64,000 nt of DNA from Spiroplasma corruscae. GTDB taxonomy: Bacteria; Bacillota_I; Bacilli_A; Mycoplasmatales; Mycoplasmataceae. The translations under genes were made by a program, and so were the position numbers. Below the pieces are notes generated by a model. It was not told the DNA's origin. It worked only from the letters and a program-made list of their open reading frames with translations, and ran no database searches. This document shows positions 4,563 through 45,890 of this stretch, in pieces; within the stretch, counting starts at the first letter, position 1, and each line of letters opens with the position of its first letter. Location: assembly GCF_002237575.1 (NCBI RefSeq), contig NZ_CP022535.1, positions 620,001 to 684,000 of the forward strand. The letters are read 5' to 3'.

Positions 4563-4584
4563 ACTTCCCTCCATTTAAATAAAA

Positions 4585-4603
4585 GTTAATTAATTTCATT
4601 AAC
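4585..4603. promoter_or_regulatory. Possible operator upstream of the sucrose operon
   Basis: Inverted repeat GTTAAT-N7-ATTAAC, 23 bp upstream of the EIIBC start. It may bind a sugar-responsive repressor, but no regulator gene is adjacent and such AT-rich palindromes arise by chance here. Confidence 0.25.
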
Positions 4604-4666
4604 TTCTAATCAATATTATTTAATCACAATTATAAGTTTATATAGTAGTTTTTTTATATTTTAAAT

Positions 4667-4699
4667 AAAAAATGGAAATATTTAATACTTCCATTTTTT
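4667..4699. terminator. Bidirectional terminator after the symporter gene
   Basis: AAAATGGAA / TTCCATTTT stem with A-run and T-run on opposite sides. It separates the symporter gene (minus, ending at 4706) from the sucrose operon. Confidence 0.7.
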
Positions 4700-4705
4700 A
4701 TATTA

Positions 4706-6373
4706 TTATTCTTTATTAGATTTTATTTTTTTAATTTCATCTTTATATGTTAATTTAATGTCTAAATATTTTAGTTTTAACTCATCTTCTGTAATTTTTT
4801 GATCTAATGCTATTTTTTTATTAGGATAAATACTTTTTAGTTCTTTTATCTTAATTGCCTTATCGTCTTTTGCTTTTAATATAAGGTTTACCTTTTCTTG
4901 GTAATGTGCTGCTTTCTTACTTAAAATATCAGTACTTTCACCAATCATTCCTTCGCTAAATGCGACAATTGTACTCACAACCATTGCAGCAATTATGTTG
5001 ACTGAAGTTCTACCAATATCATATATATCTTCTAAAACAAGCATTATAGAAAAGGCACCGTTTTTAAAACTAGGTACACCTAACGAACCTAATAAACTTG
5101 TTATAACTAATGTTGAAGTACCAGGGGTTCCAGGTATTCCTAAAGAAACAATCATTGTCATTAATAACCCTATGAATAAGAATAACCATATTCCTTGATT
5201 GTGAATTATTGATGAATCTGAACCTGTTCATAATAATGATACTATTAATCCACCTTCTGCTCCTGCTCCACCAATCATACCCATTGTTGTCGATAAGGGT
5301 ATTATTGTATTAACGCAAGATTCATCAACTTTCATTTTATCAACTAAAGATTTCATTGTAAAAGGTAAAGTAGCACTTGATGATTGTGTTACTAAACCTT
5401 GATAGGCAGGTCTTCAACCATATTTTCATCATTTATGTGGTTTAATTTTTGCAATTGCTAATATACCTGTTAAATAACCAATACAAATAAATAAACTAAT
5501 ATAACCAGCGGCTAATACTTTACCAACTGCTGTTAATGCTGTTAATGATTGAGTAATCATTAAGTTTGTAACTATTGACATTATTGCTAATGGTATTATT
5601 TTTATAAATCCATTAACTATTTTTAATATAATTTCTCAACTTGAATCCATTAATTTAACAAATGCTTCAACTTTCTCAGGTCTTTTTATTGATATCGCTT
5701 TAACACTTAATCCTACAATTAATGCCATGATTAAAACCGGAATTACAGCATCCTTACCCAAGTCAGCTATAAAGTTTTTTGGTAGATAATCAATTATCAT
5801 TGCAGGTATTGATTTAATAGCACTATCATCACCTGAAGTACTTTTATCAGAGAACTCGTCTAATACTTTTTTACCATCACTTGTGACACCAACTTTTAAT
5901 AATATACCAATTGCTGCTGCGATACAAAATGCAGCTGCAACGTTTAACATTAAAAATGTTATACCTTTACCAGTAATTCTACCTAACCTTTTAGTACTTT
6001 TTTTAGTAACAGATCTAAAGATTGATAAAAATATTAAAGGTATCATCAATAAAGTAATTGAAGTGATAAATATTTTTTTAAATAATACTGATCAAGAATC
6101 TAATTCAAATATTCAGTAAAATTCTTCTTTTCAATAAGATACACCATCTTCGTCTTTTTTTGTAAAACTTTCTGGGAATCCTACAATTGCTTGTATTATT
6201 AAACCATATAGTAAACCTAATACTAACCCTGAAAATAAATGTAAGAACTTATTCTTAAATCTTTTCAGAAAGAATCACAAACCAATTTGTAATCCAAAGA
6301 ACACTATAATAGCAATTGCCGACTTATAACTACTTATAGCTAAAAAGTCTTGTAATATACTTGTGTGTAACAT
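4706..6373 (-). CDS. Dicarboxylate/amino acid:cation symporter (DAACS/SDF family)
   Basis: 555-aa integral membrane protein of the glutamate/aspartate/dicarboxylate:cation symporter family. Evidence is the multi-helix profile and the substrate-site signature SSSATLPF in the hairpin region, followed by GAGAEGGL and GIPGTPGTSTL, close to the family's helix 7-8 elements. A charged cytosolic tail of about 90 residues, rich in Lys, is longer than usual. ATG at 6373 is preceded by AGAAAGGAAA. The gene sits behind a predicted attenuator whose leader peptide is rich in Asn and Asp codons (6483-6557), so aspartate or asparagine/aspartate uptake is the favoured inference; glutamate, cystine or dicarboxylates cannot be excluded. 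Confidence 0.85.
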
Positions 6374-6394: not shown

Positions 6395-6460
6395 AAAAAA
6401 AAGAGTACATAAAATAATTTAAATTTATATTTAAACTTATTCTTATATACTCTTTTATGA
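6395..6460 (-). terminator. Attenuator terminator and antiterminator before the symporter gene
   Basis: In the minus-strand transcript a long hairpin forms from an AAAAGAGTA arm (about 6457-6448) and a TACTCTTTT arm (about 6408-6400), with AT-rich inner pairing and a run of T, 22-29 nt before the symporter ATG. The first arm, as CATAAAAGAGTA, is also perfectly complementary over 12 nt to TACTCTTTTATG at the end of the leader ORF (6507-6496). The two pairings are mutually exclusive, the classical antiterminator/terminator arrangement. Confidence 0.7.
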
Positions 6461-6482
6461 TTATTTAATTTTTATTTAACTA

Positions 6483-6557
6483 TTAATAAAGACAACATAA
6501 AAGAGTAAATCTATTATTATCATCATTATTAGTATTTATTAATTTAAATCTACTCAT
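6483..6557 (-). CDS. Asn/Asp-rich leader peptide (24 aa)
   Basis: A 24-codon ORF with a strong AAGGAG ribosome site starts at 6557 and stops with TAA at 6483. Codons 8-15 read NTNNDDNN; the C-terminus is RFTLLCCLY. The last codons contain the strand that can pair with the downstream terminator arm. Ribosome stalling at uncharged Asn or Asp tRNAs would leave this strand free to form the antiterminator; efficient translation to the stop would cover it and let the terminator form. Too short for homology; the call rests on ribosome site, codon content and RNA pairing. Confidence 0.65.
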   Translation of the reverse strand: MSRFKLINTNNDDNNRFTLLCCLY

Positions 6558-11943: not shown

Positions 11944-11974
11944 ATAAAAAACCAACCATTAGCCATAGTTGGTT
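11944..11974 (-). terminator. Terminator of lipoprotein copy 1
   Basis: Minus strand AACCAAC / GTTGGTT stem followed by a T-run, just after the stop codon of the lipoprotein gene. Confidence 0.75.
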
Positions 11975-11992
11975 TATAATATCATTTTTATT

Positions 11993-14062
11993 TTAACTAT
12001 TTGTATATTCTATGATTGCTTTATATCGCATTTTTGTATCTCAGAATATTTTATCTACTCTAAAATTAATTTTCATAAAATCTAGTTCAAAATACATATT
12101 TGTGTATCTATTATCATTACCACCATAGTAACCATCTGCAATTATACCATATTCTGTTTTTCCATCTACAATTGTATTTTCAGTTGGTAAGACTTTATTA
12201 ACTCTTATTTGTGGTCTAAATCCAAAAGTAGTATCAAAATTTCAACTATAATGTGATTGATTTCCATTACTTAGAAGTAAATTATTTGCTATCTTTTGTT
12301 CTTGAGAACCAACACCATTTTTTTGCGATAAACTTAAACTTTCATTAAATTTTCCTAAAAACTCACCATATAAAAGATACATTAATCCATTTTCACCAGT
12401 TGGACAAATATAATTTGGATCAAATGCAAATTTTCATATGTTTAATTGTTGTCCTTCGATTACACCGCCCTTTACTTTTCCACTCATAGCAGTTAAAGCA
12501 TCTTCATTTCAAGTATTAGTTGTACCGAAAGTATCATGATACGATTGTATTCCCTTTGTTAAGTTAGCTAGTACAGATTTATACGTAACAAAATCTTTAT
12601 TATCTTTTAATGTAGATAAATCTTCTTCTTTATTTATAGTATAACCCATTGCAATATCGATATTATCAATCGAAGTTGTAATTCCTCCGTTGTCATTTCC
12701 ACCATTAATTTCTAAAACTAATCCATTTAATTTAAATGTACTAAATTTAACGGTTTTGTTAATTTTTTCTTCAAATTTAGCTCTATCTAAATCAGTATAT
12801 AGTTTAAAAATACTTTCTTTATAGTCATTAAATCATGTTTCAAGTTTATCACCACTTAAATAGTTTTCAACTGGATTAACACCATCGCCACTGGTTGTTA
12901 CTTGGTTTCTAAAAATATAGTTATAAAGATCAGGATTTCCTACAATACTGTCATCTTTTCAATTAATCTTATCATTTTTTCAAGAATAAATACTTTCTTT
13001 TGAATTTAATGCATTAAAAGTATTACTTCAATTATTATTATCGTCTAAATCATCGATTATTTTATCAACTGTTGTTTTAATTTCTACATTTGAAATACCA
13101 TCTGTTGGTTTTAAATCATTTGATAAACTTGATTTAAGAGCATTTATCGATTTTTTAAAATTACTATTAGAATCATTTAACTTATCATTTGATTCAAATT
13201 TATCATCTTCATTAGATATTCCTGATTCAATTAAAGTTGCACCACTATCAAAATACTTATATTTTAATTCTTTGGCTTTATTTTTTACATATTCAACAAC
13301 ATTATCTTCAGTTGTTATTTTATATGCAAAATTAAAAATATTATTTGCAGGTGGGTTTACTAACTGTGTACCATCTTTAGATTTATAGTTAAAATTAATT
13401 GTTATTTGGGTATCATCTAACGAAGCCAAATAAGTACTCTTAGGTTCATCACTATTTGTTTCAGTAGTACCGCTTTCATATAAAGTTAGAGTTGCTTTTT
13501 TATCATCTGAATTATTATTATTAAGTGTTGATAAACTAATTTCTACTAGATTGTTAACATTATTAGTTAATATTGAATACTCAATTTTTTTAGCTATATT
13601 TGATATTTCAGTTTTTATAGCATCAAAATTTATTTTTTTAGCAATATCTTCAAAAAATTTATTTTTATAGTCAGTGTTTTCTTGTTTATTGAATGCTTCA
13701 TCAAGATTTACTTTATTAGTTTTAGAATTTAATTGACCATCATTTACAATTTCTTTATTTGCATTAACAAAGTTTTTTAGAGTATCAATACTAAAGAATT
13801 GGTTTTGGTTATTACCATCACTTGTTGCTTCAATTCAATTTGATCTTGTTGCACTTATAATACTATTTGTTATTGCATTCACTTCTTTAAGATAACTATC
13901 TCTTACAGTTTCGTAAGAAACTGTATCGTTATTTGGATCTGGAGTTTCTTCAGAAATATTACTATCACTACTTTGATCATTACTATCACCACAAGAAACA
14001 ATACTAAATACCGGAGAAATAGTAAAAGTTAATGATGATAATATTAACACTAATTTTTTCAT
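11993..14062 (-). CDS. Surface lipoprotein, duplicated copy 1 (689 aa)
   Basis: Signal peptide with lipobox SIVSCGD (Cys near residue 24), then an acidic, Ser/Asn-rich linker and a long globular part; family not recognised. It is strikingly similar along its whole length to the gene at 17955-20003: both share stretches such as NNVNNLVEISLSTLNNN and end in WKAIIEYTNS or RYKAIIEYTNS. The copies differ in the linker (SSDSNISEETPDPNND versus SEEEPDPNKD) and toward the C-terminus. The paired membrane-protein gene lies upstream, separated here by an IS element. Probably surface exposed, and the pair may contribute to antigenic or substrate variation (inference). Confidence 0.8.
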
Positions 14063-14272
14063 ATTAATTTCCTTTCATTAATTTAAATATACAAATATAT
14101 TATAACAAAATGAATTATAAGTGTACTATATTTTAAACTTTTTTTAATATCAGTATAATATTCAAAAAAAAAAAAAAAATGAATGTTACTATAAATATAT
14201 ATAATTTTAGAATAACGGAATTTAAATAGACCATTTGCAAATATAATAAATGGTCTTTTATATATTAAAATT

Positions 14273-15174
14273 TTATTTTATTTGTTGTAAATTATTGTAA
14301 ATATTTGAGAACTTCTTAGAATAATAATAAAAATTTTCCTTATTTTCAAATCTATTACCAAAAGTTTTATAAAATTTTTGTATAAATCATCCATTTAGAC
14401 TTTCGGTTGGTGCATTATGTTTAAAGCCTTTTTTAGACATAGAATGAACTATAAAATCATTTTGATTTACATAGTTAAAAATAAGCTCATTAGCAAAGGC
14501 AGAACCTCTATCAGATTGTATTATCTTTTGATTTGCTTTTTCAATGGCATAGTTATTTGTTTCTTTAAAAACAGATAATGCACTATTTGAATTTTCACTT
14601 TTATTAAAACTATAACTAACTATAGTTCTTTTTTCTCAATCATATAATATTAAACAATTAATTTTACTTCTATTTTTCCATTATTTAAAAATATCTTAAA
14701 GTTTGTTCCATCCATACCGGTTATATTTGGTCGACTATAATTCATTTCCACCAAGTCTTCTCTAACATAGATATTATGTTTTTTTGATTCTGATTTCTTT
14801 ACACTACGTTTCTTTCTACTTGGATTATTTAATATTAATGGATGATCTACTCTAATTTTTCTAATCATTTTTTCATATACTTTTACGCCTTTATTTACAT
14901 AAATTCACTTACTTATTAAATTTGCGCCGCTTGCTAAACTATTATTTTTTAGATTATAGTCTATTATTAGTTTTTTGGCTATTGTATATCTAGGACTATT
15001 AAAATTTGGTAAATCATTAAAATATAGACCATTTTTAAATATAATTATTGGGTTCTCTAAATTATTTTTTAGTTTAAACTTAGAAAATGTATTTTTATGA
15101 ATTTTAAAATAACTAATTAATCTATTAGTTCCCAAGCCATGCGCTTTGCAATAAAATAATATATTTGACAGCAT
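14273..15174 (-). pseudogene. IS3-family transposase orfB (DDE), frameshifted
   Basis: Two frames together encode the transposase. The N-terminal half runs from 15174 (HTH region, then ITGMDGTNFKIF with the first catalytic Asp). Near 14665 the frame shifts by one base and continues as ...TIVSYSFNKSENS..., IQSDRGSAF (second Asp) and NAPTESLNGWFIQKFYKTFG (catalytic Glu), ending at 14273. The DDE arrangement and spacing fit the IS150 group. The frameshift is not at a slippery sequence I recognise, so I take it as damage. Confidence 0.8.
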
Positions 15175-15627
15175 GCATAATGTTTATAAGCTTTTGTTGC
15201 CATTATCATTATCTTGTCCTTCATACTCATCTTCAACATGTTCAACATTATAGTTGCTGTGCAAGAAGGTATGGACTTTTCCAAAATTTCTTTACTTGCC
15301 ATTGCTAATAGCTTTTCTTCTTTTTCGAACCTTACTTGTTTTTCTAAAAGTGTAATTTTTTCTTTTAAAACTTTATTTTCTTTTTCTTTTGTTTTTAAAT
15401 CTTTAGATACAAAATCTTTTTTTAATTTTTTACTCATTATTTCAACTTCTTTGCATGTTTTAATTCTACTATCATAATGAGTAAGCTTACTTTTTTTATC
15501 TCAAATTCTTATTAATTGAGAACCAACCTTAATATTCATTTCTAAAGCAATTTTATCTAAATTCTCTCCTAACTAATACCTTTTTAAGGCTTTCTTTTTT
15601 TAAATCTTCACTATACTTTCTATGCAT
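15117..15627 (-). pseudogene. IS3-family orfA (HTH), frameshifted
   Basis: The start MHRKYSEDLKKESLKK at 15627 is a typical orfA opening. The frame breaks near 15575 and resumes as GENLDKIALEMNIKVGSQLIRIW (helix-turn-helix), then a Lys/Glu-rich leucine-zipper-like coil, ending at 15117. The end overlaps orfB by about 58 nt, as expected for -1 programmed frameshifting in this family. Confidence 0.7.
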
Positions 15628-15812
15628 ATTTTCCTTTCTAATATAAAAACCAGTTGTATATACAACTGGTCTACTTAGCTTCCTTTTTTCTTTTCCATTT
15701 TATATTATTATAAGTTTTACTTTATTATATTTTAAAATTCGGAACTAATATTTTTTTTATATAAAATGTAATTGGCTTTGTGATTGTATAAATAATTAAT
15801 CATCACTTTTTA

Positions 15813-17606
15813 TTAACCTATATCAGATTTTTTAAATTTATATAATGATATTAAAAACAATAATGATGTAAATATTATTAAAGAAACATTAAAATAAACC
15901 GGATTAACATAGTTATTATATGATAGTTTATTAATTTTATTAACTATTAATTCATAGTTAAATAAAATATATGGTAGAAAGAAGTTTTCTTGTTCATACA
16001 TTTTTATGTTTGAATCACTATTTATATCAAATCACAAATCATTAAAATACACACCACTATTCAATGTATAATAACTTCAAGTACTAAAAAATGGATTTAT
16101 AATAGAAGTAATATTATTTATTTTTTTATTTTTTATATACATTGTAAAATTATCATCTTGAATAATTGGGTAATTTGTTAAGTAATAATACTTAGTAGTA
16201 TAGTTTAAGAAATATTGTTCAAGCACTCTTGTAGAGAATAATAATGGGAAATTAAAGTTCTCATTAAAGAAATTAGAAATAGAACCACTATCACATAGAG
16301 CTAAACCTTCATCTTTAGTAATATCAATTTTTGCGACAGCTGATTTAAAAATGTTTATCAAATCATCCTCAGTGAAGTTTAATGATTCATTTTTTTCAGT
16401 ATTAAAGATAGTGTTTTTGTAGTTTTTATCAAAATAAATAAAGTCACCAAAATAACTATTCTTTTCTTTGTAAATATTAGGTATTTGACTAATAAGATCG
16501 TTAGTGAAATTATATAAATCATTTAAAATTAATTTATTATCTTCACTAATATCTCCTGTGTTAACTTTATCTTTTATATCTGATAAACCAATAAAATATG
16601 AATCTAATTTAAAAGATATTTCTACATGATTAGGTTTCTCATTATAATCATTATATGAACTTCATTTTTTACCTTTTGTTCCTGAAGATTGATTATTATT
16701 TTTTAAAATACCTTTTAAATTATATTTATGTGCATCATCACCCTTATTAATAACTCCAATACTGTCTCAAAAATTATTATATCTATATAAATATGGTTCT
16801 TTATTTGATGCATCATTCATATTTAGATACATTTTTAAAACTTCATCATCATCAAAGTTTGTTAAAAAAGAATTAATAGCCTTGCTTAGATATTTATACT
16901 TAATGTTTTCTTCATTTAATAGTTTTTCAAAATTAAATGTATCATACATTGTATTTGTTTTCATAATAATCGGTAAAGAGTTTGGCATTTTTATGTTCAA
17001 ATCTAAATTATCATTTTTTTTGTCATATAACTTATTTGGAATAATTGCAATAAACCCCATAGAAATTAATAAAGAAGTTATTATTAAAGTTGGTTGTGTA
17101 CCTAAAAATAATATTAAAAAAATAATTAAGTTAACTAATGAGTAAACTATAAATACTGAAAAAATTAAAAAGTAAAATGTTTTTCTAATGGTAAAGGTTT
17201 CAATTCCATTAATTATTATATTAATTATATTGAAACTTGCATATGAAAAAATTATTGTTGAAAATAATAATAATGAAATAGTTATATATTGTGTAATTAA
17301 ATATTGTGATCTAGAAATACTATTGGAAACAATAATAAATATAGTTTTATCTTCTTGTTTTTTCACAAAAAAGAAAATCAATATCCGTATAATAAATAAA
17401 AATGTTAAGATATTTAAATAAATTATTACATAAAAATCAAATAATTCATTTCTAACATATCCTGTTTTTATAATTGAAAAAAAAATTGAAATAACAATAC
17501 TAAATAAGTTTATCATTACAAAAAAAATCACAAATGATCTTTCATGAAATAAATTTTTAAACAAGAATCTAATTATACTTGTCATTTTAATTTTTTTATA
17601 ATTCAT
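15813..17606 (-). CDS. ABC-2-type membrane protein, duplicated copy 1 (597 aa)
   Basis: Several strongly hydrophobic helices in the first 200 residues (for example FVIFFVMINLFSIVISIFF), a hydrophilic region of about 340 residues and a final helix before FKKSDIG. This layout matches the ABC-2-type permease at 52999-55053, which has an ATPase partner, but no ATPase gene is near this copy. It is about 90% identical by eye to copy 2 (20267-22081). Copy 1 has one additional A in its first A-run, so the upstream ATG used by copy 2 is out of frame here and translation should begin at MNYKK. It may pair with the neighbouring lipoprotein for export or peptide transport; substrate unknown. Confidence 0.7.
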
Positions 17607-17675
17607 TGTTTTTTTTCATACCTACTAATAGATATTATAAACTAATATTAATAATAAGCAATACTAAAGAGACCA

Positions 17676-17830
17676 GGTTGAAAGAAATTATATGGGGTTA
17701 TTTAACTTTTAATTTAGTTTGACAGAGAGCCAAACTAAATTAATTACCCATGAATTATATTAAACTGCTAAAATAATTCTTATCTGAATTAGTAATATCA
17801 CATTATTTTATTAAATAATCTAAAAAAATA
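17676..17830. other. Junction between duplication units with a perfect hairpin
   Basis: About 155 bp not shared between the units. It contains a perfect 11-bp inverted repeat (AATTTAGTTTG / CAAACTAAATT, loop of 9) at 17711-17741. There is no T-run expected of a terminator and no ORF. It could be a short mobile-element scar or a protein-binding hairpin. Confidence 0.45.
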
Positions 17831-17903
17831 AATTATTCTTAAAAATTATTACTTAATATTAAAATAATTTTATTATACAAGTTATGAATTTGTTTTATTA
17901 TAG

Positions 17904-17936
17904 AATAAAAAAACCAACCATTAGACTTGGTTGGTT
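17904..17936 (-). terminator. Terminator of lipoprotein copy 2
   Basis: Minus strand AACCAACC / GGTTGGTT stem with a following T-run; homologous to 11944-11974. Confidence 0.75.
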
Positions 17937-17954
17937 TATAATATCATTTTTATT

Positions 17955-20003
17955 TTAACTATTTGTATATTCTATGATTGCTTTTCATCTCATTGCTGAA
18001 TTTCAAAATATTTTATCTACTCTAAAATTAATTTTCATAAAATCTAATTGAAAATACATATTTGTAAATCTATTTGGATTACCTCCATAGTAACCATCTG
18101 CAAGTACACCATATTCTGTTTTTCCCTCTGCAATTGAAGTTTCGGTTGGTAATATTCTATTAACTCTTATTGGTGGTCTATATCCAGGAGTACCATCAAA
18201 ATTTCAACTATAGTGTGATTGATTTCCATTACTTAGCAATGAATTTCTTACTATCTGTTGTTCTTGATAACCAAGACCATTTTTTTGTGATAAACTTAAA
18301 CTTTCATTAAATCTTGTTAAAAACTCAATATATAAAATTTCCATTCAATCATATTTAGCAGTTGGGTGAATATATTCCTTTTTAAATGTAAAATCTCAAA
18401 TGTTTAATTGTTCATTTTCAAATATTCCATTCTTACCTTTTCCAGTAAACGCAGTTATAGCATCAACATTTCGAGTATTAGTTGTACCAAAAGTATCATG
18501 ATATGATTGTATTCCCTTTTCTAAATTAGCTAGTACAGCTTTATAAGTAACCAATTCTTTATTATCTTTTAATGTAGATAAATCTTCATTTTTATTTATA
18601 GTGTAACCTATTGCGATATCAATATTATCAATCGGAGTTGTAATTCCTCCGTTTTCATTTCCACCATTAATTTCTAAAACTAATCCATTTAATTTAAATG
18701 TACTAAATTTAACGGTTTTGTTAATTTTTTCTTCAAATTTAGATTTATCTAAATCAGTATATAGTTTAAAAACACTTTCTTTATAGTCATTAAATCATGT
18801 TTCAAGTTTATCACCACTTAAATAGTTTTCAACTGGATTAACACCATCGGCACTGGTTATTACTTGGTTTCTAAAAATATAGTTATAAAGATCAGGATTT
18901 CCTACAATACTATCATCTTTTCAACCATTCTTATCTTTTTTCCAAGAATAAATGCTATCTTTTGAATTTAATGCATTAAAACTATTAGTTCAATTATTAT
19001 TTTCGTCTAAATCATCAATTATTTTATCGGTTGTTGTTTTAATTTCAACATTTGAGATACCTTCTGGTGGGTTTAAATCAGTTGATAAACTTGTTTTAAG
19101 AGCAACAATCGCTTTTTTAAAATTACTATTAGAATCATTTAACTTATCATTTGATTCAAATTTATCATCTTCATTAGATATTCCTGATTCAATTAAAGTT
19201 GCACCACTTTCAAAATACTTATATTTTAATTCATTAGCTTTATTTTTTACATAATCAACAACATTATCTTCAGTTGTTATTTTGTAAGCAAAATTAAAAA
19301 TATTATTTGCAGGTGGGTTTTCTAATTGTGTACCATCTTTTGATATATAATTAAAATTAATTGTAATTTGGGTATTATCTAACGAAGCCAAATAATTACT
19401 CTTAGATTCATCACCAGTTGTTTCATCAGTGCCACTTTCATATAAAGTTAGAGTTGCTTTATTATCATCAGAATTATTATTATTAAGTGTTGATAAACTA
19501 ATTTCTACTAGATTATTAACATTATTAGTTAATATTGAATACTCGAATTTTTTAGCTATATTTGATATTTCAGTTTTAATAGTATCAAAATTTATTTTTT
19601 TAGCCACATCTTGAAAAAAATTATCTTTATAACTTGAGTTTTCTTGTTTATTAAACACTTCATCAAGATTTACTATATTAGTTTTAGAATTTGATTCACC
19701 ATCTTTTGCACTTCCTTTATTTGCATTAACAAATTTTTTTAAAGTATTAATACTAAAGAATTGGTTTTTGTTATTACCATCGCTTGTTGCTTCAATTCAA
19801 TTTGCTTTTGTTTCACTTATAATACTATTTGTTATTGCATTCACTTCTTTAAGATAACTATCTCTTATTGTTTCGTAAGAAACTATATCTTTATTTGGAT
19901 CTGGTTCTTCTTCAGAATCATTACTATCACCACATGAAACAATACTAAATACCGGAGCAATAGTAAAAGATAATGATGATAATATTAACACTAATTTTTT
20001 CAT
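17955..20003 (-). CDS. Surface lipoprotein, duplicated copy 2 (682 aa)
   Basis: Paralogue of 11993-14062 with the same lipobox (SIVSCGD) and nearly colinear sequence; divergence is concentrated in the linker after the lipobox and in the segment about 150-200 residues before the C-terminus. ATG at 20003 was chosen because AAGGAAAT precedes it; the in-frame ATG at 20060 lies upstream of the promoter -10 element. A promoter is visible at 20040-20069. Function unknown, surface location expected. Confidence 0.8.
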
Positions 20004-20039
20004 TTCAATTTCCTTCCATTGATTTAAATGTACCACCTT

Positions 20040-20069
20040 ATTATAGCAAACTGAAACCATATGTGTACA
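20040..20069 (-). promoter_or_regulatory. Promoter of lipoprotein copy 2
   Basis: Minus strand TGTACA (20069-20064), 18-bp spacer, TATAAT (20045-20040). Copy 1 keeps the same arrangement at 14099-14127 (AGTACA, 17 bp, TATAAT), which supports function. Confidence 0.5.
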
Positions 20070-20266
20070 ATATTTAATCTTTTTTTTAAATTGATGTAAT
20101 ATTTAAAAAAAACATAAATTAAATGTTACTACAAGTAATCAATTATATTGCATTTCTATTATCTTAAGTTTACTTTATAATATTTTCAAATTAAGACTAA
20201 TAGTTTCTTTATAATAATTATCTAAATGCATTTAAAATTGAATAAATAATTAATTATCAAGTTATA

Positions 20267-22081
20267 TTACCCTATATCAGATTTTTTAAATTTATATAGT
20301 GATATTAAAAACAATAATGATGTAAATATTATTAAAGAGCCATTAAAATAAACTGGATCAATATAGTTGTTATATGATAGTTTATTAATTTTATCATCTA
20401 TTAAATCATAATTAAATAAAGTGTATGGTAAAAAGAAGTTTTCTTGTTCATACATTTTTATATTTGAATCACTATTAATATCAAATCAAATATCATTAAA
20501 ATACATACCACTATTCAATGTATAATAACTTCAAGTACTAAAAAATGGATTAATAATAGAAGTAATGCTATTTATTTGTTTATTTTTTATATAAATTGTA
20601 AAATTATCATCTTGAATAATTGGGTAATTTGTTAAGTAATAATACTTAGTAGTATAGTTTAAGAAATATTGTTCAAGCACTCTTGTAGAGAATAATAATG
20701 GGAAATTAAAGTTTTCATTAAAGAAATTAGAAATAGACCCATTATCATATAGAGTTAAACCTTCGTCCTTTTTAGCTATACCAATTTTTGCAACAGCTGA
20801 TTTAAAAATATTTATCAAATCAACCTCAGTAAAGTTTAATGAATCATTTTTTTCAGTATTAAAGATAGTGTTTTTATAGTTTTTATCAAAATAAATAAAG
20901 TCACCAAAATAACTATTCTTTTCTTTGTAAATATTAGGTATTTGACTAATAAGATCGTTAGTGAAATTATATAAATCATTTAAAATTAATTTATTATCTT
21001 CACTAATATCTCCTGTGTCAACTTTATCTTTTATATCTGATAAACCAATAAAATATGAGTCTAATTTAAAAGATATTTCTACATTATCAGGTTTGTTATT
21101 TTCAGAAAATGAACTTCATTTTTTACCTTTTGTTCCTGAAGATTGATTATTATTTGCTAAAATACCTTTTAAATTATATTTATGTGCATCATCACCCTTA
21201 TTAATAACTCCAATACTGTCTCAAAAATTATTATATCTATATAAATAAGCTTCTTTTCCTTTATCTGATACGCCATTCATATTTAGATACATTTTTAAAA
21301 CATCATCATCATCAAAGTTTGTTAAAAAAGAGTTTATAGCCTTGCTCAAATATTTATACTTAATATTTTCCTCATTTAAGAGTTTTTCAAAATTAAATGT
21401 ATCATCCATTTCATTTGTTCTTATAGAAAACGGTTCAATAGAATTTGGTAATATAATATTCAAACTTAAATTATCATTATTTTTGTCATATAACTTATTT
21501 GGAATATTTGCAATAAACCCCATAGACATTAATAAAGAAGTTATTATTAAAGTTGGTTGTGTACCTAAAAATAATATTAAAAAAATTATTAAATTAACTA
21601 ATGAGTAAACTATAAATACTGAAAAAATAAAAAAGTATAGTGTTTTTCTAATGGTAAAGGTTTCAATTCCATTAATTATTATATTAATTATATTGAAACT
21701 TGCATATGAAAAAATGATCGTTGAAAATAATAATAATGAAATAGTTATATATTGTGTAATTAAATATTTTGACCTAGAAATACTATTAGAAAGAATAATA
21801 AATATAGTTTTATCTTCTTGTTTTTTTACAAAAAAGAACATCAATATCCTTATAATAAATAAAAATGTTAAAATATTTAAATAAATTATTACATAAAAAT
21901 CAAACAATTCATTTCTAACATATCCTGTTTTTATAATAGAAAAAAAAATTGAAATAACAATACTAAATAAGTTTATCATTACAAAAAAAATCACAAATGA
22001 TCTTTCGTGAAATAAATTTTTAAACAAAAATCTGATTATACTTGTCATTTTAATTTTTTTATAATTCATTGTTTTTTTCAT
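20267..22081 (-). CDS. ABC-2-type membrane protein, duplicated copy 2 (604 aa)
   Basis: Paralogue of 15813-17606 with the same helix-rich N-terminus, long hydrophilic middle and single C-terminal helix (SLIIFTSLLFLISLY). The frame here includes the upstream start MKKTMNYKK at 22081. It lies 264 bp upstream of lipoprotein copy 2 and is probably cotranscribed with it or closely linked. No ATPase gene is nearby. The hydrophilic middle differs most between copies around residues 210-230. Confidence 0.7.
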
Positions 22082-35682: not shown

Positions 35683-36480
35683 ATGAAAAAAGTACTTAAT
35701 AATGCACTTAAATCAATAAAAACAGAAATTACTTTTTATCCTTGTTTAGGATTAGTATCAAAAAAGAACTCTGGTAGTCACAATGATATGAATTATAAAA
35801 CTTTTTTAAAAAGTTACAAAATATTAAAGCAATATTTAAAAGAGATAAATAATAAATTTAACACTATAAAGAATTTTGAAAATCTTAAAAATATTGGATT
35901 AAAGTATGAAATTGAAATGTTCAAAAAAACTAATAATATTAATACTCATAAAGGATTAATATTTGCTCTAGGTATTTTTTATTATTGTTACATAACTTAT
36001 AATAAAAAATATAATAATCTAAAAAACTATATAAAAAGTTTTTGTAAAACTTTAGATAATTTTGATTATAAAAATATTAATACATATGGTTCTAAACTAT
36101 ATTTAAAATATAAAGTTAAAAGCGCTAGACATGTTGCTTGTGATGGTTATAGCGTAGTATTTGATATTTATAGTTTTTACAAAAAGAAAATTAAAGACTT
36201 AAAGTTAAAACATAATTACAAGTTATTTTTTTTACTTATAAAATGTTGTTTAGAAATTGATGATACAACATTAATAAATAAAATAGGATTTAATAATTAT
36301 AATAAAATAAAAACCAAGATGAATAATATTTTGTTATTAATAGATAGAGATAAATTTGATAAAAAATTTTATTTAGAGATTAAAGAATTTAATGATTATT
36401 CAATACATAGAAATATTTCACCCGGTGGTGCTGCTGATATACTTGTTTTAGTTTTATTTCTTATTAAGAATAAGTATTAA
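35683..36480 (+). CDS. citG: Triphosphoribosyl-dephospho-CoA synthase CitG
   Basis: 265 aa. CitG makes the precursor of the citrate lyase prosthetic group from dephospho-CoA and ATP. Motifs: CLGLVSKKNSGSHNDMNYKTF near residues 21-40, TNNINTHKGLIFALGIF near 85-101, and the C-terminal ISPGGAADILV. Length fits the family (about 290) on the short side. It has an AGAGGT ribosome site. It is the only plus-strand gene of the cit locus and its stop overlaps the end of citC by 4 nt. Confidence 0.9.
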   Translation: MKKVLNNALKSIKTEITFYPCLGLVSKKNSGSHNDMNYKTFLKSYKILKQYLKEINNKFNTIKNFENLKNIGLKYEIEMFKKTNNINTHKGLIFALGIFYYCYITYNKKYNNLKNYIKSFCKTLDNFDYKNINTYGSKLYLKYKVKSARHVACDGYSVVFDIYSFYKKKIKDLKLKHNYKLFFLLIKCCLEIDDTTLINKIGFNNYNKIKTKMNNILLLIDRDKFDKKFYLEIKEFNDYSIHRNISPGGAADILVLVLFLIKNKY

Positions 36481-37502
36481 TTTTTTTTATATATATTTTT
36501 ATCAATCATTCTTTTATTAAGATTTATTTTACTAATTATTTTTATTGTAGTATTAGGAACTAAATAATTTCATTCTTTGTTCTCATAAATGTTTTTTCTA
36601 ACTTGAGATGCTGAAACAACTTCACCATTAATTTTTTGTCTTTCTATTTCTAAAAAAGAAATTTCGTTTTTATTTAGAATTTTATCTAAAACTTTATTAT
36701 ATAGATTAGTTGTTCTTGAGAATGGCTCATTACCTACTAATCTCGTAATAAATCTTTTCTTACTTTCAAATAGATTTACAAAAATTTTTGCATCAATCTC
36801 TGCCTGCGATAAGACAACTTCATTTTCATTATTTAAAAAATAACTTGGAAAAGTTACATTAGAAACAAGATAATTAGACCCATTTATTAAATCAACATTT
36901 TTAAAACTTTTAATATATGTAAGAATCATTTTTTGTCTTTCGTTATAAGTGAAAAGTGAAACATCTTCTTTAACTGGTATAATTAAAACCTTTTCAAAAT
37001 TTTTTGATGCGTAGTCAATCAAAAATGCATGACCGTGAGTTAATGGGTTGCAATTCATCACTAATATACAAGTTTTATCAGCTGTAATAGATTTTAATAA
37101 ATAATTTTTATATTTTAAATAATTGTCATAATTATTAGTCAAAAATACTACATTATCAGTTGTAACAATACTTTTAAAATTTAAATCTTCAAAGATATAT
37201 TTATTTTTCTGTTTAGTATATACAAATATTTCTTTTTCGCCTTGAGAATAAATTAATCTTGATATTTCAGTAATTAATTTGTTTAATAAATTTTGATTTA
37301 AATAGTTTTCACTTACTGCAACACATTTTATTACGTTATTTAATTTACTACAAGTAGCAATTATATTTTGATTTTCATTTTTTATAACTAATGTAGCATC
37401 GACTAGGTTATAATCTAGATTAAATTTATTTAAAAATTCTTTCACTCTATTTACTTCAATTTTATTTTCTAAATCAATATAGTAAGTTGTTATATTATTC
37501 AT
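36477..37502 (-). CDS. citC: [Citrate (pro-3S)-lyase] ligase CitC
   Basis: 341 aa. Acetylates the thiol of the citrate lyase prosthetic group, activating the enzyme. A GNAT-like N-terminal domain is followed by a nucleotidyltransferase domain with CNPLTHGHAFLIDYA (HxGH motif) and later VVSASQVRKNIYE. Last gene of the minus-strand operon; its ATG lies inside the end of the citX-gntR gene (8-nt overlap). Confidence 0.9.
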
Positions 37503-38643
37503 TTTCCATTACCTTTATTATAATTTTTTGAATATCTTCAAAATATAACTCTATTGATTTATTTAATTCTTTGAAACTTTTTGTTAGTAATGCAATGCAT
37601 ATATTAATATGTTGTTCGTGTATAACATAAAAATAACTTTCAGCTTTTTTGCTAATTAAATATCTTACATTAGAAAATAATATTTCAAATTTATTAAAAA
37701 GGTTTTTGGTAAAATATTTATCTGAAATTGAAAATAATAAAGCATAAAACTCTTCATTTCATTTTTTTAATAAATCTAAATTAGATCTATCAAGAAATTG
37801 TAAGTATTCTAAAACTCTTTCTACAACAACTCTATGGTCTTTGTTTTTTATTTTTTCAAAAATATCTTTAAAGATAATTAACTTTGCACATTTTCTTAAT
37901 TCTATTACTTCTGTTAATTCTGCATAAGTTAATTGTTTTACTATAACTCCAATATCTTTTCTTCAAGCTAATAAACCATATTCAGTTAAAGTAGCAATAA
38001 CTTCTCTTATTTTTGTTCTTGATACATTATATTTTTTTGAAAGTTCTACTTCTTTTAATCTATCTGAAGGAGATAATTTTCCTTCTGAAACATCATTAAT
38101 TATATCGTGCATTATATACTGTTTTGAAAATGCAAATGCTATTTCTAGATTTAATAAATTATCAACAACTTTTTCTAATTCTTCAATTGGATGTCTTTGT
38201 TTGAAGGCACAATTTTTTGCAAATTCATCACAAATCAAACATACCCTGGGTAACTTTGCTAGATTTTCTCTTGTAATTTTTTTGGTAAGCGAAAGATAAA
38301 CATCAATATCTACTAAGCTTGAATGTTTTCCTAATATATCTTCAAAATCAAGGGCTAGTTTTTTTACTTGATATGGATCACCTTTTGCAACTTCAATGTA
38401 ATATATGTATCCTGCTTCATCTTCAAAGAAATCGAAGTTTATTGTTTCATAAAACTTTTTCAAATTACTTAAATATTCATAGAAACATTTTTGGATGAAC
38501 TTTAATTTTAAATCTCCTTTTTTACTTATTCCAGGAATATTGAGAGACAAGGTTACTACAAACTCTGAGTTTTCTAGTTTTGATTTTAATATCCTAGTTC
38601 TATTTTCACGTGCATCTAAAATTTTTTCTAGTAATTGTTGCAT
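37495..38643 (-). CDS. citX: CitX fused to a GntR/FCD-type transcription regulator
   Basis: 382 aa in one unbroken frame. Residues 1-165 are CitX (apo-citrate lyase phosphoribosyl-dephospho-CoA transferase): ARENR at 11-15, TLSLNIPG, a DIDVYL segment, and PRVCLICDEFAKNC near 132-145 followed by HPIEEL. Residues about 176-245 are a winged helix typical of GntR regulators (GKLSPSDRLKEVELSKKYNV and SRTKIREVIATLTEYGLL), and 250-382 are an all-helical FCD-like effector domain. Enzyme and regulator are thus one chain. Two perfect ATTGTATACAAT palindromes in the operon promoter fit the GntR/FadR consensus, so autoregulation is likely (inference). CitX-CitG fusions are known; I am not aware of a described CitX-GntR fusion. 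Confidence 0.85.
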
Positions 38644-38646
38644 TTA

Positions 38647-40194
38647 TTATAATTCCTTAACTTTATATATTATATCTATAATTGTCCCATCTCTATACTC
38701 AACTACTGCAACTGGTTTTGAATAATCGTACTCTATTTTTTTAGGTTTTCCAACTATACTATAAGCAAAGTCCATCATTTCTTTTAATGAAACTGTTTTG
38801 ATGTTCTTGTTGTTTAAACTTTCTATAATATCTTTTCTTTTAGGATTTACAGCAATTCCATAATCAGTAACAATAACATCGACAGATGAACCAGGTGTAA
38901 CAATTGAAGTTACCCTATCAACAACGCAACTCATTCTTCCTCTTATTAGTGGTAATGCTACAATTGTAATTTTAGCACCTTGAGCTGTATCTGGATGACC
39001 ACCTTGTGCTCCTCTTATTACTCCATCACTACCAGTTATTACATTTACATTAAAATCTAAATCTACCTCTAATGCACTTAAGATAACATAATCAAGTTTA
39101 TTTACAAATGGTGATTTATTATGTGCATTAGCATACATTGAAGCTGATATTTCAATATGATTTTTATTATTTGCAATAGAATTAACCGCTAGTGTATCAA
39201 AACATTGAGTATCAAATAAAGCTGTAGTTAATCCATCTTCTAATCATTTTACTTGATGTCCTGTAATACCTCCGAGACAAAATGACGATTTAATATTTTT
39301 TGCAATCATATTGTCAGTTAACGCTTTAATTGCTGATAATGAAGCTCCTCCAGTACCCATTTGAATAGAGAAACCGTTTTTAAATAATTCTGTATTTACA
39401 ATTACTTTTGATATAAAATCTGCAATAATTTCTTCTTTTGGAGCAGAAGTCAATCTTATCTCTTTTGAAACTATTTTATTAGGATCTCCAATTTCATCTA
39501 CAACAACCACATAATCAACTAAACTTTGTGATATTGATATTACTTTATTTGGATAATCAACCAAATGATCAGTTATTATAATAGTTTTTAAAGCATATTG
39601 AGCATCTACCATTCCATAACCCAAACTACCACAAGCAGATTTTCCGATTACTCCATTACAATTTCCCATTTCATCAGAAGAACTAGCTGCAATAAATGCC
39701 ACATCAATTTTCAAATCACCAGATTCAATAGCTCTAGCTCTACCACCATGACTTCTTATGATCATTGTATTTTTAAATTCTCCAGATGAAACAAATTTAC
39801 CTAATTCATCTCTACAACCTGATGTTTCTAAACCAGTTACAACACCTCTTTTAATATAATCAACTAAGAAATTATGTGCGTCAGTAAAACTACTACTAGC
39901 AATAGTTATATCTTTTATTTTTAACTTATCAATTATTTCCATTACAAGTTTAATAGTTTTATCACCACTTCTAAAATGATGGTGGAATGATATTGTCATT
40001 CCACTTTTTAATCCTGAATTTTTAATTGCTTCTTCAAGAGAAACAATTTTACTACGATTAACACCATAATTTGGTAGAGAAGTTTTATTTGTTGAAAAAC
40101 CTGAAGTTTTTAATTCTTGAGGATTATATGCTTTAAGTTTATAACTTATATCTTTAATTTTATCTAATTCGGTTTGTTTTAATTTATCACTCAT
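38647..40194 (-). CDS. citF: Citrate lyase alpha subunit (citrate:acetyl-ACP transferase)
   Basis: 515 aa. Exchanges citrate for acetate on the acyl carrier protein. Family landmarks: SFHHHFRSGDKTIKLVMEII, IIRSHGGRARAIESG, VAFIAASSSDEMGNCNG and VITGSDGVIRGAQGGHPDTA. Length matches CitF (about 510). Starts 1 bp after the citE stop and ends 3 bp before citX-gntR, a tight operon. Confidence 0.95.
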
Positions 40195-40195
40195 T

Positions 40196-41104
40196 TTAAT
40201 AATCCCCTTTCTTAACTAAATCAAAATCTTCTGCTAACTTTAATATTTCTATTTGTTTTTCTACAACAGGTTTATCAACCATTGTTCCTCTAAATAAAAA
40301 GACTCCTACACCATCTTCAACACTCTTGTTAAATGCTTTTACCATTTCAAGAGCATACTCTACTTGATCTGGAGTTGGTTTTAATATTTCATTTATATAT
40401 CTAATTTGATTTGGGTGAATAACTGATTTACCATTAAATCCTAATGATTTTACAAATTTAAATTCTTTTACAAACCCATCTTTATCATTAACATTTGAAT
40501 AGACTACATCAAATACATCTAATTTAAGTGCTCTGGCAACATGCACAAGATGTTGTCTTGCATATAATAGTTCAGTTCTTTCAATTGTTTTATCACCTTT
40601 TAAATCTAGCAAGTAATCAAACCCACCAAGTGCTATTCCTTGAATTCTTTCTGATGATTTCGCTATTTCAAATGCATTTAATATTCCTAATGCACTCTCA
40701 AATGCTAAAAATAATAATACCTTATCTTCTCTATTGTATTTTTTTTCATATGTTTCTAAAGTTTTAACCGCATAATCAATGTCACTTACTTTTTCAACCT
40801 TTGGCAATCTAATCATATTCACATTAGATTGCACACAAGCTTCAATATCTTTCTCAAATCATTCAGTATCTATCCCATTAACCCTTACACAAGTTTCAAT
40901 ATTATATTTATTGTAATCCATATCAGTTAATATTTCTCTCAGTAAAATTCTTGTACTATCTTTTTCTGAATAAGATACAGCATCTTCTAAATCAAACATA
41001 ATAGTATCAGGTTTATAAAATACAACATCACGATACATCGCTGGTTTATCTGCCGGTACAAATAACATATGTCTACGACTACGATTTATTTTCCAATTTT
41101 TCAT
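40196..41104 (-). CDS. citE: Citrate lyase beta subunit (citryl-ACP lyase)
   Basis: 302 aa. Cleaves citryl-ACP to acetyl-ACP and oxaloacetate. HpcH/HpaI-type barrel with RRHMLFVPADKP at the N-terminus, IMFDLEDAV (metal-site Asp/Glu), CVRVNGIDTEWF, FLAFESALGILNA, and GFNGKSVIHPNQI near the C-terminus. Starts 3 bp after the citD stop. Confidence 0.95.
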
Positions 41105-41107
41105 AGA

Positions 41108-41371
41108 CTATGAACCTCATTTTTCAAGAGCTGCTATGACTCTTGCTCTAATAACCGCTGGGATAGCACCTTGGTCATTTATTTCTATTTTTAAATTATT
41201 TACATTTTTTGATTTACATACATCATTAACAATTGAATAAATTTCATCCTTGTATTGTTTTAGAAACTTAGATTTAACATCTATTTCTAATTTGTTATTT
41301 GTTGAGTTGGAAATTACTACCATCAAATCTCCAGATTCAACACTACCTACTGTAATCGAAATATCTTTCAT
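41108..41371 (-). CDS. citD: Citrate lyase gamma subunit (acyl carrier protein)
   Basis: 87 aa. Carries the phosphoribosyl-dephospho-CoA arm on the Ser of SVESGDLMV (Ser13). The ATG at 41371 is used because AAGAAAGGT lies just upstream; an earlier in-frame ATG at 41419 falls inside the transporter gene. The C-terminus reads EKWGS with Trp encoded by TGA. 13 bp after the transporter stop. Confidence 0.92.
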
Positions 41372-41384
41372 ATTTTTACCTTTC

Positions 41385-43376
41385 TTATAACAATCCCACC
41401 GGAACTGCTTCATTTGCATATATTGAGAAGAAAACTCCTGCTAATATTAAAATAACACTTCCAGCTATCCTGCAAGTTATTTGTCCTCAAGGCATTAATT
41501 CCATTCTATTACTTGTTCCCAGTACCATTATTGCACCCGCTCCACCTTGGGCAGTCATGCATAAACCACCCGCTATTGCTGATTCAACTCCATAGAATTT
41601 GAATAATTTAGCAGCAAATAGTGGAAAAATTGATGCACCAACAACAAACGATAAACATAAAAGCAATGTAGTAGGACTTAAAGCATTAACAAATTTATCA
41701 AAATTAATATATACCATTCCAACAGCAAACATTAACAACCAAGTTGTTTGTTTGGAAATGAATATATTTACTTTACTAATTCCCTTTTTTATTTCTCTTG
41801 GAATTATATTTAATATATTTAAAGTTATACCAATTACAATCATTCAAGCATAGTTAGGTATTAGTATACCAATCATATCTTTTGTAAATACTTTATTTGC
41901 TAAAGTGTCTGATGCAATATAAATAATTCCAATAATTAATACAGCTACAGCAATATTTCTATCTTTTGCTTCTGATTTTCTTTCGGTTGTATGAATATCT
42001 TTTTTTACAAGTTTACCATCCCCAGATAATGATGGCCTAACTTTACCAATTGCTGATAAAATTCCAGCCATAATTACCGATAGAATAGAAGCAACAGTTG
42101 ATACAGTTAAAGCAGAAGACATTCAATCTTTTTTATTAAAACCATTTTGAGCAGCTATTTCACCAATTGGTTGAATACCACCACCATTACCACTACATAA
42201 AATTGGTAATCAATAATTTAATAAAAATTCCTTCATTGACAAACCGGTTGCTAGCATTCCTAATAAACCGACAACTGTAGCTCCCAATGTACCTATAATA
42301 ATAATGGCAAAAAAACCACCTGTTGCTTTAACAATCATTTTTTTTGGTATTAATATAACTGCACCAACCAATAAAACAGAAATATAGAATCCTACAAAAT
42401 CCTGCTCTTCAAATCAAACTTTTATCGATGTTTCAACCTCTGTTGGCAAAACATTAAACTTAACAAACAAACTACCAATAATCATACAACCAATAAGTGC
42501 TCCACCTAAATATTTATTTCAAATAGGTATTTTTGTGAATAATACACCAAATACTATCGATAAAGTTAGTAGAATACTAAAAGCATAGATCATTTTATCT
42601 GTAACTATACCAGTTATAAATGCAGCTACAACAACTCCAACCATAATCAATAATAAATATAATGGTATAGTGTAAATTCTTAAAGTAATCCAATCCTTGA
42701 ATGAATAATGCTTCATTTCAATCAATTGCTTTTGTTTCTTCAATTTCCATAATTCAAAATTCTCTTTTTTGCGTTGTTTTCAATTAATAAAAGCTAACTG
42801 AAAAGGAATATATTCCTTATTACTATTTTCATAAATACTTCTTTTGATTTCTAATAACCTTAATTTAAACTCCTTTTTATCAGTGTTTTTATTGATAATT
42901 TTACTTTTTTCTATTTTAAATTGTTTTTTAAAATCTATTTTAGCAAACTTTTTTTCAATTGATCTTATGTATACTTTTTCATTATAATTTACAGAGTTTT
43001 GAAACCCATCTTCTATGTCTTGCTTTGCTAAAACATAATTTTGTTCCATAATATCAAGATCTTCATCTAAATTTAATAATTTTTTTGAATATATTTCTTC
43101 AAGTGAGCTAAAATAATTATTATAATTAATATCATTTAATTTATTACTCTGATATTTTTCTTCTAGTACTTTTTTACTTAATTCAAGTTTATTTTTAAGT
43201 TTTTCTCTTTTATTTAAAAAACTAAGTTTACATTTTTGATAGTTTTTTTCCATTTTAAAGTACTCTTTTTCTTTATACGCATTTAATTTTTTGGATTTCT
43301 TCTCAAATATAACTAAAGAGTTACTCTTTTTACTAACATATTTTTCATTCTCTTCAGTCGTTAAAAACTTATACAT
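41385..43376 (-). CDS. 2-hydroxycarboxylate (citrate) transporter with extra N-terminal domain
   Basis: 663 aa. Residues about 222-663 are a 2HCT-family transporter (CitS/CitP/MleP): CSGNGGGIQPIGEIAAQ (first GGxG loop) and CMTAQGGAGAIMVLG...RMELMPWGQITCRIAG (second loop) are diagnostic. It should import citrate, by Na+/H+ symport or citrate/product exchange. The first 220 residues are an unusual Lys/Glu/Asn-rich, coiled-coil-like cytosolic domain (start MYKFLTTEENEKYV, with LEKKYQSNK-type helices). The frame is continuous across one TGA (Trp) codon at 42782 and lacks an internal ribosome site, so the two parts form one protein. Start 43376 with AAGAGAGG; first gene of the cit operon, directly behind the operator. 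Confidence 0.85.
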
Positions 43377-43615: not shown

Positions 43616-44491
43616 TTAAATTTCTTTTCTATATCTTTCTAACTGTGATTTCAAGTTAAACCCACATTTATTAAATTCTTTTAATAAATCTACATTTTCT
43701 TCCAATAAGCTAATAGCATCTTTTCTAGTTGCTCAATTAGAATCGTAAAAAATACCTTCTCCATCAATCATTACATAACTCGTAAATACTGTCTCTTCAT
43801 CTTCAATAGAAGTTGAAAATTGGTTATTAGGTTTATCTAAGCTATTATTTTTAATAAAATACTCAAACTTTGCCTTAGTAATCTTATAATTAATAAACTC
43901 AGGTTGTTTAACATCTGTAACTTGCATAAGTTTTCATCTTTTAGGACCTAATTCTTTTATAAAATCTATTAGTTTTTCTTGGTAGTTCTGAGAATGTATT
44001 ACAGAGTTAATTTTAAAAATACATCCTGCTTTTTTAATTCTCTCTGCTATTAACTTATAATCATTCTTTGTTAATGAACTTTTACCTCCTATTGCTCTAC
44101 CTGAATTTTCATTATTAGATATTAAAGAAGAATCCATGCTTAAACCAACTGTATCAAAATTTCTCAGGACTTCTAGAACATCACTTTCTTCCTTTTTAGA
44201 AATTAGTGACCCATTAGTTATTAAACTTGTTTTAAGTCCTACTTCTTTGCTTCTTTTAGAAATGGATTTTAATTCATCTCAATATAATGTTGGTTCTCCA
44301 CCAGCAAAGTTTATTGCTTTAAATACATTTAATTTTTCTACTATTTTTATTCAATCATCTAACTTATTAACAACTTTTTTAGCCTTCGCTACTTCAACTG
44401 CATAAAAACAAAAATTACATCTCATATTACAAAACATATTAAAATGAAAGTTTACTTTTAATTTTTTTAATTCTTCTAGTGTATAATTCAT
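43616..44491 (-). CDS. Prokaryotic viperin (antiviral radical SAM enzyme)
   Basis: 291 aa, the usual size for viperins. The radical-SAM cluster motif is NMFCNMRCNFCFY (Cys21, Cys25, Cys28), matching the viperin form CNxxCxFCF. Further hallmarks in order: INFAGGEPTLY, SLITNGSLIS, VGLSMDSS with NNENSGRAIGG, KINSVIHSQNYQE, GPKRWKLMQV and the C-terminal SYVMIDGEGIFYDSN. Viperins convert a nucleoside triphosphate to its 3'-deoxy-3',4'-didehydro form, a chain terminator of viral polymerases. The ATG at 44491 has a weak GGGAAA site; an alternative in-frame ATG is at 44503, only 3 nt after the preceding stop. Last gene of a four-gene overlapping operon. Confidence 0.87.
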
Positions 44492-44506
44492 ATTTTTTCC
44501 CATTAT

Positions 44507-45321: not shown

Positions 45322-45890
45322 TATAACTCTTTAAATCTTTTAATTCTTGTTTTTGAAGAATTAAGAGCTAAATTGAATGAAGTATCATTATTAAAACATT
45401 TTAATAAAACTTTTGAAGTTGCTTCAGAATCAGCTAAAGCATCATGGTGATTAAAAGTTATTCCTAATTCTTTTGCTAAAACTCCAAGTCCGTGTTTTGA
45501 AAATCTTCCAGGAAATGAACTTCTTATAAGATCAACACTACATGCATAATCGAACATAAAAGGACTAATGTCGTGTAATCTTAATGCTCTTTTTAATACA
45601 CTCATATCAAAACCAGCATTATGTGCAATAACAATATAACCTTGCGTTAGTTTTTCTCTTATAATTGGTAATACTTGTTGAAAATTTGGTTGTCCTATTA
45701 AGTCTTTATTAGTAATTTTATGTATTTCTGTAAATTTTGGATGTATAAAAACTCCTCTTGGAAGACTAATCAGTGATTGATAGCGATCAACTATTTCACC
45801 ATTTATACATGTTACTATCCCTACTTGACACGGAATTTGCATTCAATTAGCCGTCTCAAAATCTATAACCACAAAACTAGGTTTCTTCAT
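45312..45890 (-). CDS. DEDDh 3'-5' exonuclease (DnaQ-like)
   Basis: 192 aa. DnaQ/epsilon-type fold with VVIDFETAN (Exo I Asp/Glu), YIVIAHNAGFDMSVL (Exo II Asp) and FNHHDALADSEAT (Exo III, His plus Asp of the DEDDh class). It removes nucleotides from 3' ends of DNA or RNA. The start lies 14 nt inside the end of the helicase gene and the stop overlaps the Clp-like frame by 10 nt. It could be a repair enzyme or an effector of the neighbouring viperin-containing module; the sequence cannot decide. Confidence 0.85.

Follow-up and report, generated by a model that had tools for sequence, protein, structure and literature searches.

How can a cell that has lost most of its transcription factors and most of its amino acid biosynthesis, as mollicutes have, still adjust the uptake of one kind of amino acid to its needs? 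The question is raised by a locus on the minus strand of the 64-kb stretch of Spiroplasma DNA analysed here (the window), where the gene of an SDF-family (dicarboxylate/amino acid:cation) symporter of 555 aa (6373-4706) follows a short open reading frame containing a run of Asn and Asp codons. All coordinates given below for this locus are on the minus strand of the window.

The leader ORF comprises 24 codons including the stop (6557-6483) and encodes MSRFKLINTNNDDNNRFTLLCCLY when read with code 4; TGA specifies Trp in the host genome, and the symporter gene itself contains nine in-frame TGA codons; the leader has none. A Shine-Dalgarno sequence, AAGGAG (6571-6566), lies 8 nt upstream of the leader ATG, and codons 8-15 read NTNNDDNN, within which AAT AAT GAT GAT AAT AAT (6530-6513) forms the putative regulatory run. 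Further on, wholly inside the ORF, is a segment that we call arm 2 (6508-6487). Part of it (6507-6496, TACTCTTTTATG) is a perfect 12-nt complement of arm 3 (6459-6448, CATAAAAGAGTA), and the two would form an antiterminator. Arm 3 can instead pair with arm 4 in the stem of a predicted intrinsic terminator (6456-6395), which ends in a run of eight T (6402-6395) directly before the symporter gene. The original prediction, made from this DNA alone, had described the ORF with its ribosome site, the eight codons, the 12-nt complementarity to the first arm of the terminator and the terminator's position before the symporter, and all of these were recovered. The symporter start is corrected from 6394, beside the terminator T-run, to the conserved ATG at 6373, which is preceded by its own Shine-Dalgarno sequence AAGAAAGG (6386-6379; GAAAGG in all five orthologs).

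About 23 nt separate the leader ORF from the A+T-rich terminator hairpin. Its long A+T-rich stem is visible by folding, which pairs 16 positions besides those of an inner hairpin of 9 bp. A generic terminator scanner reported no terminator, being limited to loops of 3-8 with three or more G-C pairs near the loop. At the other end of the leader, TGNTATTAT/TGNTAATAT align as an extended -10 element in all five orthologs, at a constant distance from the leader Shine-Dalgarno sequence. In the window this presumed promoter (TG-T-TATTAT) is at 6586-6578, from which the leader transcript would be expected to start near 6571. A generic promoter scan gave no excess over shuffled sequences. A transcription start downstream of 6483, which the original prediction had named as evidence against itself, looks unlikely given this conserved element upstream of the leader ORF. 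Directly 3' of the symporter gene, the fold of 4575-4712 contains a terminator-like 17-bp hairpin (4701-4659), so that the unit is probably monocistronic.

We propose that the locus is a ribosome-mediated transcription attenuator that senses the charging of Asn- and Asp-tRNA, and we put the probability of this reading at roughly 77%. RNA polymerase would start a few bases 5' of the leader Shine-Dalgarno sequence. When charged tRNA-Asn and tRNA-Asp are plentiful, the whole leader would be translated and the ribosome would come to sit on arm 2, the TTTACTCTTTTATG part of the ORF; arms 3 and 4 would then be left to pair, and transcription would terminate before the symporter. When either Asn- or Asp-tRNA is scarce, the ribosome would stall within the six Asn/Asp codons, a run that ends one Arg and two variable codons ahead of arm 2. 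Arm 2 would thus stay free to pair with arm 3, the terminator would not form and the symporter would be transcribed. If no ribosome loads, arm 2 is predicted, in several species, to fold back onto arm 1, which consists of the Shine-Dalgarno sequence and start-codon region of the leader ORF itself (6572-6550), closing the leader and permitting the terminator.

How far could such an arrangement arise by chance? Among 11 terminator-like sites found on both strands of the 64 kb, only this one has an upstream copy of at least 11 nt that could take arm 3 as its partner. The corresponding count in first-order Markov sequence was 1 of 44 terminator-like sites, so the 12-nt copy taken alone is modestly rare and weak as evidence. 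Asn and Asp make up 15.4% of the residues in the window's proteins, and at that frequency the probability of a run of at least six in a 23-codon ORF is about 2e-4. We regard comparison between species, and not these estimates, as the decisive support.

Orthologs of the symporter occur in 5 of 320 genomes of the order, all five in one genus, and the window's copy is 69-75% identical to the other four. Each of the five ortholog loci (L004-L008) has the leader: MSRFKLINTNNDDNNRFTLLCCLY in the window and MSKFNHLNNDNNNRFTLLLCL, MSKFILTNNNDDNNRSTLLCCLY, MSKLFLLSNNDDNNRLALLCCLY and MKSKSLLNNNDDNNRAALLFCLS elsewhere. Because these species belong to a single genus, the five leaders are related sequences and do not count as independent. 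Equivalents of the leader Shine-Dalgarno sequence are present throughout, as GGAG or GGGG, and the arm 3 segment TAAAAGAGT is likewise found in all five. The search for leaders before orthologous symporters, suggested with the original prediction, therefore found one in every case; the loss of ORF and arms from close relatives, which would have counted against it, is contradicted by the same five loci.

Conservation is concentrated in the part of the leader that the proposed switch would use. From the Asn/Asp run to the stop, 71% of the alignment columns are invariant; the figure is 19% for the early part of the ORF and 18% for the linker, and it drops to 8% in the sequence preceding the promoter. 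Six Asn/Asp codons are present in each species, as NNDDNN in four and as NNDNNN in one (G016, with a single Asp). Codons 3, 4 and 6 of the run vary between species, and only by synonymous change or by exchange of Asp and Asn. In the arm 2 Leu codons CTT TTA, and in the TGT CTT that follows, no base varies, not even silently, while neighbouring residues do change. In the run, then, the amino acids are kept and the bases are not, whereas in arm 2 it is the RNA that is kept, which is what an attenuator requires. Such a dual constraint, as read from these alignments, is predicted neither by a chance ORF nor by a purely RNA-based switch. It also bears on the idea that the terminator is governed by an RNA-binding protein, a small RNA or constitutive partial read-through, the leader ORF being incidental. 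Terminator and antiterminator do exist independently of the ORF, but the retention of reading frame, Shine-Dalgarno sequence and Asn/Asp identity with synonymous changes in five of five species makes this improbable, and no Rfam family (T-box or riboswitch) was detected in the window at the gathering threshold.

The attenuator reading depends on three alternative pairings that share arms: 1:2, 2:3 (the antiterminator) and 3:4 (the terminator). We judged their conservation from duplex energies, also with arms exchanged between species. The 3:4 duplexes have energies of -16.4 to -18.4 kcal/mol in the five species, with 0-1 of 500 shuffles as good, and a stretch of 7-8 T directly follows the stem in every one. 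Exchanging the 3:4 arms between species mostly weakens the pairing, since the stems have diverged while the pairing was kept. The 2:3 duplexes range from -12.4 to -17.3 kcal/mol; 0-6 of 500 shuffles did as well in four species and 27 of 500 in G016.

The 1:2 pairing, between the leader's Shine-Dalgarno and start region and the end of the ORF, was not part of the original prediction and is added here. Its energies are -15.7 to -20.8 kcal/mol (0-8 of 500 shuffles as good); in the window the value is -17.9 kcal/mol, and one of 500 shuffles pairs as well. In G012, the most diverged species, where the peptide begins MKSK in place of MSK, arm 1 reaches -15.7 kcal/mol with the arm 2 of the same species but only -7.8 to -10.2 with that of the others, indicating at the sequence level that the two sides have changed together. 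The leader ribosome site is covered by this pairing in all five species. This last fact suits a different explanation, that the leader mainly tunes translation or RNA stability, with 1:2 modulating translation of the leader and the hairpin before the symporter protecting the mRNA rather than terminating it. We consider this highly improbable: the symporter's own Shine-Dalgarno sequence lies outside both alternative pairings, and in every species the 3:4 stem runs straight into 7-8 T, as is typical of an intrinsic terminator.

The 1:2 pairing also accounts for the conserved C-terminal codons of the leader, which at first resembled a cysteine sensor. We rejected cysteine sensing through the CC codons: the residues are CC, LC or FC depending on the species, and the codons are explained by pairing with the Shine-Dalgarno sequence. 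The same variation of the C-terminal residues (CC/LC/FC, then Y, S or none), explained by RNA pairing, speaks against a peptide that acts in the exit tunnel. By that account the leader would be a nascent-chain arrest or destabilising peptide responding to a free ligand or another stress, and not to tRNA starvation, with the same RNA switch downstream. Its length and composition are compatible with an arrest peptide. Ribosomes may pause or become unstable on an acidic stretch early in an ORF, and EttA is described as relieving the pausing that acidic residues cause in leaders of this type (PMC11282234, PMC8092293). The run here is, however, mostly Asn, which is not acidic, and that of G016 contains a single Asp, so we think an arrest peptide unlikely.

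For sensing of tRNA charging, the position of the ribosome has to decide between the pairings. The original prediction had proposed folding the leader RNA with and without a stalled ribosome, and we modelled both situations. In a footprint model, in which the ribosome covers 16 nt downstream from the first P-site base and no pairing spans it, arm 2 pairs with arm 3 for stalls up to the penultimate Asn/Asp codon in all five species. Past that codon there is little or no 2:3 pairing, and none after the following Arg, again in all five. In this model the Asn/Asp run thus extends exactly to the limit beyond which arm 2 would no longer be free. With the ribosome placed at the leader stop codon, arm 2 is covered and the terminator forms. 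Once bases on either side of the ribosome were allowed to pair, several stall positions retained 1:2 instead of 2:3, which is the main soft point of the switch as modelled. In folds of the nascent RNA without a ribosome, 1:2 is preferred in G000 and G012 and 2:3 in G007 and G014; the untranslated default state is not uniform, since the preferred fold differs between species. In the complete RNA the terminator is in every case the most stable structure at equilibrium, so antitermination must be kinetic and decided during transcription, as in known attenuators.

Beyond these five loci, we searched 60 genomes of the family with a profile (R1) built from the five leaders, and only these same five were recovered at E<1e-7. 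Weak matches (E 0.1-0.55) proved to be gene starts in G008, G006 and G018 and an unrelated short ORF in G216. A pattern search for a ribosome site, an ATG and an Asn/Asp run in all 320 genomes gave no further leader beyond four of the five symporter leaders; that of G012, with GGGG as its ribosome site, therefore escaped the pattern. Other matches of the pattern were N-termini of long proteins, low-complexity ORFs and chance. A second Asn/Asp candidate in G000 and G016 (L060, L066) was rejected as the start of a protein of 426-435 aa. Two other short ORFs came to our attention. One, in L062 from position 1513 (G014:C1 near 552931), is a free-standing ORF of 30 codons, nearly all of them for Asn (MNSNNNNNNNNNNDNNSCNCNNNNNNNNNN). 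It has a ribosome site of its own, is followed by a hairpin and T-run, and apparently faces a gene on the other strand. The other, MIKFLFKSQINFYWCLLI, in L091 near 1500-1600 (G216:C1:616755-616839), has a ribosome site, stands shortly before a membrane protein gene and could be a leader of a different kind.

A paralog of the symporter (L009-L033; 37-42% identity within the genus) is widespread in the family, and its loci have no such leader in front. In nearly every copy inspected it lies shortly after another gene, and this arrangement without a leader suggests a constitutive copy beside the presumably regulated symporter. That preceding gene looks by eye, in most genomes, like the C-terminus of a lipoamide/NADH-type enzyme. 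Leader, antiterminator and terminator thus accompany all five orthologs and are absent before the paralog, a distribution that supports the leader-peptide attenuator first predicted.

What the symporter imports can be approached from its own sequence. It matches PF00375 (E 2.3e-72) and aligns with GltPh and GltTk (E to 1e-28), and its TM8 motif D-x-G-R-T-x-x-N is aligned with D-M-G-R-T-M-V-N of GltTk. The equivalents of GltPh Asp394, Arg397, Thr398 and Asn401, the TM8 residues that bind aspartate in GltPh, are retained by all five orthologs and by those paralogs that were examined, so that an acidic substrate would fit. The TM7 sodium-site motif NMDGT is absent from the five orthologs, which have GMIGG instead, and the coupling ion may therefore differ. 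The most likely substrate is aspartate or another acidic amino acid, and the hint of Asp/Asn in the leader codons fits these residues; the substrate of the symporter would in effect be predicted from the codons of a 24-residue peptide. AsnA, which converts Asp to Asn, was found in each of the 11 genomes tested from the genus, and all five leader-bearing genomes have a proper asparaginyl-tRNA synthetase; Asp taken up by the cell can thus serve as the source of both amino acids. A single import step feeding both sensed tRNAs would explain why the run mixes Asn and Asp codons.

The closest known counterparts are the trp, his, phe, thr and ilv attenuators of enterobacteria, which share with this locus a short translated leader with a run of relevant codons, the 1:2, 2:3 and 3:4 pairings and a terminator right before the first gene. 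Every defining feature of attenuators that can be checked from sequence was found here, in line with the enterobacterial-type arrangement originally claimed for this mollicute transporter, and the closed 1:2 leader resembles the protector 1:2 hairpin of the trp attenuator. There are also differences: the controlled gene is a single importer and not a biosynthetic operon, Asn and Asp would be sensed, arm 1 includes the leader Shine-Dalgarno sequence and start codon, arm 2 lies wholly inside the ORF, the arms are A+T-rich and the host is a mollicute. The nearest documented Gram-positive case that we found, in a low-G+C relative, is the ribosome-mediated Leu-rich attenuator of Staphylococcus aureus ilvD, proposed from a leader peptide and a terminator and supported by genetics and reporters (PMC5794164). 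It uses Leu/Ile codons before a biosynthetic operon, and we claim no sequence relationship to the present leader. T-box riboswitches regulate amino acid transporters in Firmicutes (PMC2494555) and, like the proposed switch, make antitermination before a transporter gene depend on tRNA charging. They bind uncharged tRNA directly and without translation, unlike this leader, at which Rfam detected no T-box at the gathering threshold. Other leader peptides of transporters, mgtL/mgtA among them, resemble this locus in that a short ORF acts on the transporter gene by way of alternative RNA structures. Those leaders respond to Mg2+, proline or osmotic state, often by means of Rho, whereas this locus has an intrinsic terminator and Asn/Asp codons.

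To our knowledge, no Asn/Asp leader attenuator is known elsewhere. Our search of mostly open-access literature turned up no description of a leader of this kind in Spiroplasma or any other mollicute. Attenuation is not mentioned in a study of how Mollicutes control transcription (PMC5138195). The odds seem to us about even that this is the first Asn/Asp-sensing leader-peptide attenuator, one that controls a mollicute importer and in which the leader's ribosome site is itself the first arm. Opening of the leader would then require a ribosome to load before arm 2 has been transcribed, and importer expression would thus need both translation capacity and a shortage of Asn or Asp. If the attenuator reading is right, mollicutes would retain specific nutrient control without a regulator protein, by means of a self-contained, conserved RNA switch.

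Several other features of the window deserve mention. A second transporter, of the 2-hydroxycarboxylate (citrate/malate) type (PF03390), belongs to a region at 36480-43376 (minus strand); its adjoining genes look by eye like those for citrate lyase subunits and assembly proteins, which is unusual for a mollicute. A tandem duplication of about 4.5-6 kb with lipoprotein and membrane protein genes lies at 11946-22081, its copies being 87-96% identical where they were compared. A prokaryotic viperin gene of the radical SAM type (PADLOC pVip, E 9e-61) is present in this mollicute genome at 43622-44503 (minus strand); the viperins of other bacteria synthesise antiviral ddh-nucleotides. About 1.4 kb from the viperin gene, at 45883-47967 (minus strand), is a gene for a UvrD/GajB-like helicase with a Cas4-like nuclease end (PADLOC), and the two are possibly a small defence region.
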